Assembly (NCBI GenBank): GCA_024403735.1 | Contig: JAKSRG010000003.1 | Coordinates: 62,001 to 126,000, forward strand | DNA: 64,000 nucleotides | Origin: Clostridia bacterium | GTDB taxonomy: Bacteria > Bacillota > Clostridia > Saccharofermentanales > Saccharofermentanaceae | Reading direction: 5' to 3' | Shown here: positions 45,189 through 48,755 of the stretch, piece after piece | Numbering within the stretch: the first letter of the stretch is position 1 | Layout: every line of letters starts with the position of its first letter | The notes under the pieces: model-generated | The model's input: the letters and a program-made list of their open reading frames with translations, nothing else | Database searches by the model: none | Told to the model about the DNA's origin: nothing | Translations under genes and position numbers: made by a program

Positions 45189-46082
45189 ATGTATTATTTA
45201 ATTATAATTCTTTTATTATTCTTATTAGTAGGAACTATACTCGCGATATATAGTTTCAAGGAAGCTCATGACCTCAAAATCACCTTCGCTAAACTTACTA
45301 AATCGAATACAAATAAGCATGACACTTCATCCTTTATTCAGATTGAGGAAGACTATAAAGACTACTCCCCTATTGTTAAAACTAGTAAAGACTCACTCAA
45401 GGTTTTATTCTTTAGTGATCTTCACATAGAATATTGCTTCATCCCTGTAAGCACCGTTATTTCGGTCATAGACGACGCTATAGCTAACTATAATATCGAT
45501 GCCGTTATCTTTGGTGGGGACCTCTGCAACAAGCCTAAAAACGTATCTAAAGCACACGCTTACATCGATACTATAGCTGAGCACCTTAAACCCAAGGGTA
45601 TTCCATTTCTAGGAACAACTGGAAATCACGATGCTGATGTGGATGCTAAACTTATAGATGTGTGTAGTTTTGTAAATCTTAACAAAACTCCTGTAACAAT
45701 TAAAAATTTTGAGTTACGTGGCATCTACGATTCTGGTAGAGACGACCGTGTATGGGAAGAAAATCCTTTCACCACACACGAACATACAAATATTCTCGTC
45801 TCACATAACCCAGATTGGCTCTTATACGCATCTGAATGTAAATCACTTAATAACATCGACTATATGCTCTCAGGCCATATACACGGCGGTCAGATACGTA
45901 TGCCATGGGGTCTCGAGAACACTTTGTTCCGCAAAGACATACTTCCTAAGAAAAATAAGGTTGTAAAGGGTGTTTTCGATGGGGTCGGCGTAAAATTCTT
46001 CATATCAAGAGGAATTGGCTGCATACTCGTGCCATTTAGATTTTTAGCACCACCTGAGATTACTGTTGTAGAAATTGAATAA
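45189..46082 (+). CDS. membrane-anchored calcineurin-like metallophosphoesterase, YkuE-like
   Basis: 297 residues. An N-terminal signal-anchor helix (about 2-22) is followed by the metallophosphoesterase core with all five motifs: FFSDLH, FGGDLCN, GTTGNHDAD, LVSHNPDW and SGHIHGGQ. The final two metal histidines are present, so it should be active with two Mn2+ or Fe2+ ions. Related proteins (YkuE, YaeI) hydrolyse phosphodiesters or lipid-linked pyrophosphates at the membrane. Substrate unknown. Single gene. Confidence 0.93.
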   Translation: MYYLIIILLLFLLVGTILAIYSFKEAHDLKITFAKLTKSNTNKHDTSSFIQIEEDYKDYSPIVKTSKDSLKVLFFSDLHIEYCFIPVSTVISVIDDAIANYNIDAVIFGGDLCNKPKNVSKAHAYIDTIAEHLKPKGIPFLGTTGNHDADVDAKLIDVCSFVNLNKTPVTIKNFELRGIYDSGRDDRVWEENPFTTHEHTNILVSHNPDWLLYASECKSLNNIDYMLSGHIHGGQIRMPWGLENTLFRKDILPKKNKVVKGVFDGVGVKFFISRGIGCILVPFRFLAPPEITVVEIE

Positions 46083-46093
46083 TTCCAAGCAAT

Positions 46094-46211
46094 AAAAAAG
46101 GACCGCTCATGCAGTCCCATAGCTCATAAATCTTTGGGCAAAAACTTATGAAATGTGACAACTATGGTAAGAAACCCTCTTTCTATGCCTAGATCACACT
46201 TGTATATTATC
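46094..46211 (-). ncRNA. candidate stand-alone structured small RNA, about 108 nt
   Basis: Between the glgP terminator and the phosphoesterase gene, the minus strand has an extended -10 promoter (TG-C-GATAAT, GATAAT at 46206-46211), a predicted start near 46200 and an intrinsic terminator at 46100-46117 (GGACTGC, loop ATGA, GCGGTCC, then TTTTTT). The RNA in between can form an 11-bp hairpin (46125-46150, loop GCCC), an enclosing helix CCATAG/CTATGG (46162-46167 with 46117-46122), and AGTGTGA (46194-46200) pairing with TCACATT (46152-46158) in the asymmetric internal loop, giving a pseudoknot. A 5-bp hairpin lies at 46170-46184. No minus-strand gene follows for 1 kb, so it is not a leader, and it encodes no convincing peptide. 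It matches no family I know. Confidence 0.6.
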
Positions 46212-46295
46212 GCAACATATTATTAATAGAAATTGACAATTCGGACAAATTAGCTTCTGAATTTATAGCGAATATATCTCGAAAATCATAAAAAT

Positions 46296-46325
46296 AGCCT
46301 CTCTTCACATTCGTAAAGAGAGGCT
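46296..46325 (-). terminator. intrinsic terminator of glgP
   Basis: Minus-strand 10-bp stem AGCCTCTCTT/AAGAGAGGCT with a 10-base loop, followed by ATTTTTATG. Confidence 0.9.
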
Positions 46326-46352: not shown

Positions 46353-48755
46353 TTAGATCTTGCAAGGCTTAATGTTCCAAATCTCTTCAGCGTACTCGCT
46401 AATTGTACGGTCTGATGAGAATCTACCTGAATTACAGATGTTGATCCAAGCCTTCTTAGCCCAAGCCAACTCATTCTTGTAATCTGTGTAGATCTGATCT
46501 CTTGTCTTACGGTAATCGTCGAAGTCACCAAGTACATAGTATGTATCACCTGGGTTCCAGTTGTCACCATAGAGGAGACCATTGTAAAGATCTCTGAACA
46601 TGCCTGTTCCCTCGTCGTTGAATGAACCATCAATAAGTCTATCGAGAGCCTTCTTAAGACCTGGGATGTTCTCATACTGCCACTGTGGGTTGTAGTAAGC
46701 CTTTGTAGCAGCCATATTCTCAGCACGGCAACCGAAGATGTAGATGTTCTCGTTACCTACTGCATCAGCAATCTCTACATTAGCACCATCGAGTGTACCA
46801 AGTGTAAGAGCACCGTTCATCATGAACTTCATGTTACCTGTACCTGAAGCCTCGAGACCAGCTGTAGAAATCTGCTCTGAGATATCAGCTGCTGGGAACA
46901 TACGCTCACCGTTTGATACGTTGTAGTTCTCGATGAAGTAAACCTTAAGTCTACCCTTCATGTCTGGATCGTTGTCGATCATCTTAGCAATCTCGTTGAT
47001 GAACTTAATGATAGCCTTAGCTCTGAAGTAACCAGGAGCAGCCTTAGCACCAAAGAGGATTGTTACAGGTGGGAGATCAAGTGATGGGTTCTCCTTAATT
47101 CTGTCATAGAGGTTCAATGCATAGAGAGCATTGAGGAGCTGTCTCTTGTACTCGTGGAGACGCTTAATCTGGATATCAAATACTGAATCTGGGTTAAGCT
47201 CAACACCAGCTGTCTTCTTAAGGAAGTCAGCATATGAAGCCTTGTTAGCTCTCTTAATAGCGATAACTCTCTTGAGAACTTCCTCATCATCCTTATACTT
47301 CTCGAGCTTCTTCAAATCCTCGAGGTGTGTAACCCACTTATCGTTGCCGAGGAGCTCTGTAAAGAGTGCAGCAAGCTCAGGGTTACAAGCACGGAGCCAT
47401 CTTCTAGGTGTAACACCGTTTGTCTTGTTAGAGAACTTCTCTGGGTAAATCTCATACCACTCCTTGAGTGTCTCTCTCTTAAGGATATCTGTATGGAGTG
47501 CAGCTACACCGTTAACTGAGTGTGAACCGTAGATAGCCATCCAAGCCATCTGAACCTTACCATCAGCGAGCATGCTCATTCTGTCGATAAGCTCTGAATA
47601 TACACCAGCCTCATACATCTGAGCTCTGAACTGGTTGTTGATACCCTCTACAATCTCGAAGATACGTGGGAAGAGATATCTGAAGATTGAGATATCCCAC
47701 TTCTCAAGAGCCTCAGCCATGATTGTGTGGTTAGTATAAGCGAATGTCTCCTTAACGATCTCCCAAGCATCTTCCCAACGAACGCCATTCTCATCAACGA
47801 GAATTCTCATAAGCTCTGGGATACCGATAACTGGGTGTGTATCGTTAAGCTGAATTGCATTGTACTTAGCAAAATCATGGAGATCATCACCATGAACTGC
47901 CTTATATCTTCTAACGATATCCTGAAGTGATGCAGATACGAAGAAGTACTGCTGTCTTACACGGAGAACCTTACCATCATAAGATGAATCATTTGGATAG
48001 AGAACTCTCCAGATATCGTTAACACGGTTACGCTGGATAACAGCATCATCAAATCTCTGTGAATTAAAGAGGTTGAAGTCGAACTCTTCTGCTGGCTCAG
48101 CCTTCCAAAGACGGAGAAGGTTGATGTTCTTTGTGCCGTAACCTGTGATAGGAAGGTCACATGGAACAGCCCAAACGTCCATATCATTGTAATGAACCTT
48201 TACTCTCTCATTGAAACGCTGGAGTGTGAATGGATAACCACGCTCCATCCATGAATCTGGATGCTCCTTCTGGAAACCATTCTCAATTGTCTGACGGAAC
48301 AAACCGTAACGGTACATGATACCGTAACCAGTTACTGGAAGGTTAAGTGTTGTACATGAATCGAGGAAACATGCAGCAAGTCTACCAAGACCACCATTAC
48401 CAAGAGCTGGATCTGTTTCTTCCTCAAGAATGTCTGTAAGATTATAACCATATGAAGCCATTGCTTCTTTAGCTACATCATAAATACCGAGGTTAACGAG
48501 GTTGTTAAGAAGTGAACGACCCTCGAGGAACTCTGCTGAAAAATAATAAGCCTGTCTCTCATTGCTGTAAGCTACACGAGTTTCTTCCCAGTTATCAGAA
48601 ATCAACTCAACAATACTCTTTGACAAAGCTGTCCAATAATCTCTTGCAGATGCCTTATCAGCTGTAAAACCTGTCTCTGCTCTAACGTGAGCATCAATAC
48701 GATCTGTAAGCATCTTTACTGTTACTTTTTTTGCCATAATTTGCAACGACGCCAC
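46353..48755 (-). CDS. glgP: glycogen/starch (maltodextrin) phosphorylase
   Basis: 800 residues of the GT35 family. The N-terminal part holds DPALGNGGLGRLAACFLDS, and the C-terminal part holds the pyridoxal-phosphate site in EASGTGNMKFMMNGALTLGT (lysine of GNMKF). ENYNVSNGERMFPAADIS and QLNDTHPVIGIPELMRI are also typical. It releases glucose-1-phosphate from alpha-1,4-glucans. The start is most likely GTG at 48753-48755, 8 bases behind GGGGGAG; the internal ATG six codons later has no ribosome site. That GTG sits in a hairpin. No other glycogen gene is adjacent. Confidence 0.97.
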   Translation of the reverse strand: MASLQIMAKKVTVKMLTDRIDAHVRAETGFTADKASARDYWTALSKSIVELISDNWEETRVAYSNERQAYYFSAEFLEGRSLLNNLVNLGIYDVAKEAMASYGYNLTDILEEETDPALGNGGLGRLAACFLDSCTTLNLPVTGYGIMYRYGLFRQTIENGFQKEHPDSWMERGYPFTLQRFNERVKVHYNDMDVWAVPCDLPITGYGTKNINLLRLWKAEPAEEFDFNLFNSQRFDDAVIQRNRVNDIWRVLYPNDSSYDGKVLRVRQQYFFVSASLQDIVRRYKAVHGDDLHDFAKYNAIQLNDTHPVIGIPELMRILVDENGVRWEDAWEIVKETFAYTNHTIMAEALEKWDISIFRYLFPRIFEIVEGINNQFRAQMYEAGVYSELIDRMSMLADGKVQMAWMAIYGSHSVNGVAALHTDILKRETLKEWYEIYPEKFSNKTNGVTPRRWLRACNPELAALFTELLGNDKWVTHLEDLKKLEKYKDDEEVLKRVIAIKRANKASYADFLKKTAGVELNPDSVFDIQIKRLHEYKRQLLNALYALNLYDRIKENPSLDLPPVTILFGAKAAPGYFRAKAIIKFINEIAKMIDNDPDMKGRLKVYFIENYNVSNGERMFPAADISEQISTAGLEASGTGNMKFMMNGALTLGTLDGANVEIADAVGNENIYIFGCRAENMAATKAYYNPQWQYENIPGLKKALDRLIDGSFNDEGTGMFRDLYNGLLYGDNWNPGDTYYVLGDFDDYRKTRDQIYTDYKNELAWAKKAWINICNSGRFSSDRTISEYAEEIWNIKPCKI

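Follow-up and report, generated by a model that had tools for sequence, protein, structure and literature searches.

A candidate small RNA encoded beside glgP in Saccharofermentans, predicted to pair with the translation start of a cellobiose-type ABC permease

We found that the gap next to glgP in the window (the whole stretch of DNA analysed, 64,000 nucleotides from a Clostridia bacterium) holds an element that is very likely a stand-alone, trans-acting small RNA (sRNA) of the antisense type, blocking translation of a cellobiose-type ABC permease; we infer both its transcription and the repression. Pairing between this RNA and the permease start is supported by coevolution of the two sequences. 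The RNA is a new family of a known kind, the trans-acting base-pairing sRNAs. Sequence by itself seldom suffices to prove what an sRNA targets; in this case coordinated change of sRNA and target is seen across 25 genome pairs. The genomes belong to gut and rumen Clostridia that are uncultured or have been little studied, and the RNA is a candidate regulator of their cellobiose uptake, which is central to fibre fermentation. An orphan terminator beside a metabolic gene can thus reveal an unlinked target.

The RNA element and its locus

The original prediction placed a stand-alone small RNA in a 270-base gap between a phosphoesterase gene and glgP, and the gene ends (46082 and 46353) confirm that gap. 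The features are as follows.

45189..46082, plus strand: calcineurin-like phosphoesterase (PF00149), convergent neighbour, stop at 46082
46094..46200, minus strand: predicted sRNA, about 105 nt (start probably near 46202-46198, end near 46094; fold z -3.8; same layout in homologues from 28 genomes of the genus)
46094..46118, minus strand: predicted intrinsic terminator of the sRNA (stem 46118-46099 plus U tract; terminator call)
46124..46151, minus strand: hairpin P2, 12 bp, apical loop GCCC at 46139-46136 (fold, relatives, covariation)
46152..46170, minus strand: start-pairing segment TTACCATAGTTGTCACATT, which complements the permease mRNA over its ribosome-binding site and start codon (BLAST, trans covariation)
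46152..46200, minus strand: hairpin P1, closing helix AGTGTGA (46200-46194)/TCACATT (46158-46152) (fold; relatives share the hairpin)
46206..46214, minus strand: putative extended -10 promoter element TGCGATAAT (sequence; right distance from the sRNA)
46296..46325, minus strand: glgP terminator, separating the sRNA from glgP (intrinsic terminator call)
46353..48755, minus strand: glgP, glycogen phosphorylase, upstream neighbour of the sRNA (PF00343, 992 bits)

The gap contains two minus-strand intrinsic terminators, both as predicted, where shuffles expect 0.2. The one at 46325-46296 is that of glgP, and the one at 46118-46099 indeed has no protein gene ahead of it. No minus-strand gene was found within 1 kb downstream of the RNA, which supports a stand-alone RNA and not a leader. 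We also found no viral contigs carrying the phosphoesterase.

The ends of the sRNA were placed from the promoter and terminator positions. The proposed extended -10 element lies at 46214-46206, suitably spaced, and relatives have a similar element at the same distance from P1 (e.g. TGTTATCAT, TGATATTAT); a consensus promoter scan omits TGCGATAAT and offers a weak TTGTCC/AATAAT at 46248-46219 instead. The 110-nt minus-strand element (46094-46203) is as compact as had been claimed, folding at -34.3 kcal/mol with none of 200 shuffles equal. Its layout is three hairpins: P1, P2 and the terminator. The hairpin with loop GCCC in the original description is P2, where both-sided changes occur in 7/10 pairs. 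The described pairing of AGTGTGA with TCACATT is also present, but it closes the ordinary, conserved hairpin P1 (92% of cells paired across homologues) and does not enter the internal loop of any larger helix.

The Rfam search that had been proposed as a check gave nothing at or above the gathering score of any family. Matches to frnS (RF01796; E 2.4, 17.4 bits vs a threshold of 60) and suhB/mmgR (RF00519; E 1.2, 16 bits vs 41) were rejected as a chance-level, weak overlap with the same stretch of the element, and matches to STnc230 and STnc560 were likewise below thresholds. No paper was found in a literature search for sRNAs in Saccharofermentans.

When 59 relatives were searched at the DNA level, one clear homologue adjoining glgP emerged (G024), along with an antisense-looking match in the element's own genome. 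Inspecting the gap downstream of glgP in 30 genomes of the genus, we found the element in G000 (the genome of the window), G062, G024, G030, G031, G063 and G012, and in diverged form in G022. A covariance model built from seven of these glgP-gap elements, with no use of target knowledge, contributed most of the 28 RNAs found among 85 Saccharofermentans genomes (mostly metagenome assemblies, some well under 90% complete), the genus being identified from its named relatives. At least 22 of the 28 are no more than 400 nt from the glgP stop, mostly 200-280 nt past it. In G082 the RNA adjoins the phosphoesterase while glgP is on a different contig; hence, the linkage to glgP is common and not universal. 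P1, P2 and the terminator recur in nearly all of 20 homologues folded, with inter-hairpin spacing varying by indels and the terminator at the equivalent place with a different sequence. The helices covary, with both-sided changes in 8/14 pairs and none of 500 shuffles as good, in an alignment fitted to the model that leans towards structure. Homology beyond the strain and helix covariation, both named beforehand as tests of the element, are thus in place.

Elsewhere in the order and class, the model search found the RNA absent apart from matches judged chance: that in G308 (E 5.9e-6) falls within a coding sequence, in an AT-rich genome, and that in G156 (E 0.009) does not match in layout. Phage and plasmid collections gave no match.

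Three further observations concern related sequences. Directly 3' of glgP in G073 (L200 2700-2900) and G096 (L201 3300-3550), both genomes without the large permease and extra to the 28, a variant element keeps P2 (CATAAATTTTTGCCCAAGAGTTTATG) and the terminator with a different segment replacing the start-pairing one; it may have another target. In G018, a weak model match (L165 780-900, E 0.05) consists of repeated GTAAAC/GTTTAC inverted elements around TTTTTGCCCAAAA. In G068 (L050), short dispersed repeats (AGACTAACATTCAGACTAGAGGC...GGTTAGTCTGA) lie between glgP and the sRNA.

Predicted pairing with the permease start and its coevolution

After the self match, the best BLAST match of the element in its own genome was 81% antisense (G000:C9:3500-3542, E 1.9e-4) and is the complement of the start of a gene for an 833-aa MalF-like ABC permease. 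This gene is unlinked to the RNA, which lies on contig C23, apparently encoded apart with its own promoter and terminator. The permease mRNA reads GGGCAAAAAAUAAUUAUGGAGAGUGACAACUAUGGCAAG and the sRNA segment UUACCAUAGUUGUCACAUUUCAUAAGUUUUUGCCC is near-complementary to it, some of the differences being G-U pairs. Corroborating this match, the covariance model built from the RNA alone also matched the antisense of the permease start in the same genomes (e.g. G095, E 1.4e-7; G024, 6.7e-7; G082, 2.2e-6).

The predicted duplex of the element with its own target has an energy of -56.5 kcal/mol, against -25.2 ± 3.7 for the shuffled target. The next-best among other translation starts tested reached -35.0, and the sole equally low entry was the same target with an alternative start. 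The target site alone is weakly folded; the pairing part of the RNA folds stably at -21.5, and hence pairing must displace structure. Both loops have partners in the target: UUGCCC of the P2 loop is complementary to GGGCAA upstream of the ribosome-binding site, and UUGCC, in or beside the P1 loop, to GGCAA just past the AUG. The P2 UUGCC core is kept against target GGCAA in nearly all targets listed, with GGUAA and a G-U pair in G068 and G031. We rejected a third contact, in which linker GUUGUUGUU would meet AACAACAAC upstream of the target. Its presence had resembled co-occurrence (13 genomes with both, 6 with neither, 5 discordant), but cognate energies showed no advantage over swapped ones (matched in 987 of 5000 permutations).

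Among the 85 genomes, the large permease occurs in 30. Both partners are present in 26, the permease only in 4, the RNA only in 2-4 and neither in 51-53 (Fisher p about 1e-13, not ancestry-corrected). Several of the 4 genomes with the permease and no detected RNA, and of the 2 with the RNA and no permease, are incomplete assemblies. In G013, which has the permease and no RNA, the GGGCAA site is lost and the ribosome-binding site is changed, as expected if this site is kept for the RNA.

Coevolution was measured in 25 genomes with both partners, on a 19-nt ungapped duplex spanning AGAGTGACnnnnATGGCAA whose segments were anchored by hand on the motif GUYAC. We found 438/475 cells paired vs 420.6 ± 2.3 with partners shuffled (0/5000 reach 438, the shuffles ignoring ancestry), and 396/475 Watson-Crick cells vs 370 after shuffling. 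The 22 distinct pairs are 92.1% paired, and sliding the register gives at most 59%; they hold 17 both-sided cells vs 3.9 ± 2.1 (none of 500 shuffles). Cognate core duplexes average -54.4 kcal/mol vs -47.7 when swapped (0/5000). The signal comes mostly from two positions: the base after target GUGAC (A, G or C, with U, C or G opposite it in the RNA), and target GUGAC vs GUAAC, matched by GUCAC vs GUUAC.

On a permease tree built with the pairing region left out, the GUGAC/GUAAC position (pair position 13) changed 3 times in each partner and 3 times in both as a pair, and the base after GUGAC (pair position 10) changed 5 times in the RNA and 6 in the target. A tree-based sign test found 3-4 of 5 independent pairs in agreement and none in disagreement, which with so few pairs is below significance (p 0.125-0.25). 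Pairing in the start helix is poor in G091, and the cognate duplexes of G075, G092 and G100 rank low among swapped partners. Complementarity to the translation start is kept by compensatory change. The trans action suggested in the original prediction is probably correct.

The RNA could also be a broad regulator of several mRNAs, with the permease merely its best-conserved target. The elements of G073 and G096, which keep P2 beside glgP with a different start-pairing segment, hint at another partner, and the CUCUC and UUGCC segments could meet other ribosome-binding sites. However, BLAST of the genome itself found no other site approaching the permease start, and a pattern search of it found no perfect copy of the 17-nt start motif beyond the target and the complement of the sRNA itself. 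We consider this broader role rather unlikely.

Predicted mechanism, operon function and other readings

Operon order in eight relatives is binding protein, large permease, MalG-like permease and then an approximately 829-aa GH94 protein, which follows directly in most and after a gap or another gene in two. The GH94 copy tested scores about 1300 bits to cellobiose phosphorylase, and the best solved relative of the binding protein is a putative cellobiose-binding protein (8bfy). Hence, cellobiose or cellodextrin import is the likely function of the operon, judging from these neighbours. In G000 a GH94 gene, which shares 83% identity with its counterpart in a relative, lies on another contig.

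At about 810-870 aa, the MalF-like permease (L031 1016-3517 and relatives) is unusually large, with a long stretch ahead of the conserved permease domain and a Pfam match only at 616-814. Separately, the stretch separating the binding-protein gene from the permease gene holds a GC-rich hairpin (GCGGGGCAGGG...CCCTGCCCCGC) that is very conserved (L031 3518-3622 and relatives: L064-L077, L093-L095, L152-L164) and is likely an mRNA stabiliser or partial terminator.

We propose that transcription of the sRNA starts at a promoter and stops at a terminator of its own, and that the sRNA would present, in two hairpins, the segment complementary to the permease translation start. First contact would probably be made by P1 UUGCC with GGCAA past the AUG and by P2 UUGCCC with GGGCAA before the ribosome-binding site, the facing motifs on either side suggesting that the loops meet first. 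The duplex would then spread across the ribosome-binding site and start codon and block ribosome loading, lowering synthesis of the permease and perhaps of the product of the downstream MalG-like gene. The binding protein would be spared, its gene lying upstream of the strong GC-rich hairpin that separates the two genes. The RNA may balance two routes to glucose-1-phosphate, glycogen breakdown and cellobiose import.

The fullest form of this proposal is a genus-specific sRNA with largely one target, whose two UUGCC loops bracket the ribosome-binding site and which links the glgP locus to cellodextrin import, balancing glucose-1-phosphate sources; we offer it tentatively. The original suggestion of a tie to glycogen or envelope metabolism holds insofar as glgP adjoins the RNA in most species, while the target for which there is evidence is instead the cellobiose-type permease.

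Pairing might conversely activate or stabilise the permease mRNA, for instance if it melted an inhibitory fold or protected the mRNA from nucleases. The strong GC hairpin just upstream of the target site makes a structural switch conceivable, but the site itself is weakly folded and a duplex over the ribosome-binding site and start codon is normally repressive, which makes activation improbable.

The compact fold would also suit a metabolite-binding, riboswitch-like RNA or a protein-binding structured RNA, with an incidental resemblance to the permease start. The a-b-a-b pseudoknot that had suggested a riboswitch is, however, not conserved. Its outer helix CCATAG/CTATGG exists in G000 and is not kept elsewhere: among equivalent segments of 26 homologues, a comparable helix (7 bp) occurs only in G000 and in two others with unrelated sequences, most having 3-5 bp, and we rejected the pseudoknot. 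Pairing with the start-codon region of the target (CTATGG) accounts for CCATAG better than pairing with the linker does. Only in G000 does the target read CUAUGG, most others having AGAUGG, and the G000 RNA has the matching CCAUAG. With neither a conserved pseudoknot nor a known Rfam riboswitch found, and with sequence conserved exactly at the trans-pairing stretch, where changes track the target, this reading is very improbable. Just as hard to credit is that the element is no gene but a degenerate copy of the permease start region or an inverted repeat arisen by chance: an inverted duplication could yield antisense similarity, but 28 genomes retain the promoter-like element, the two hairpins and the terminator and show covariation, and both-sided changes recur on separate branches.

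Comparison with known systems

Repression by the sRNA is the default reading for a predicted duplex lying over the ribosome-binding site and start codon, as in SgrS/ptsG and RNAIII/coa. The enterobacterial sRNA SgrS base-pairs with the mRNA of the sugar transporter gene ptsG and represses its translation (PMC6832061), and is a functional analogue of the RNA described here in that each would pair with a sugar-transporter mRNA. SgrS differs in encoding a peptide, SgrT, and in targeting a PTS permease, whereas our RNA has an ABC permease as its predicted target and no conserved reading frame was seen in it; it gave no Rfam match of any kind to the SgrS family, and the two have no sequence relation. 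In Staphylococcus aureus, an imperfect RNAIII/coa duplex masks the ribosome-binding site and is joined by a loop-loop contact (PMC2837412). The RNA beside glgP resembles this arrangement in its masking duplex and in a loop contact that is, here, predicted only. RNAIII is long, multi-target and quorum-controlled, whereas the Saccharofermentans RNA consists of two short hairpins with one dominant target.
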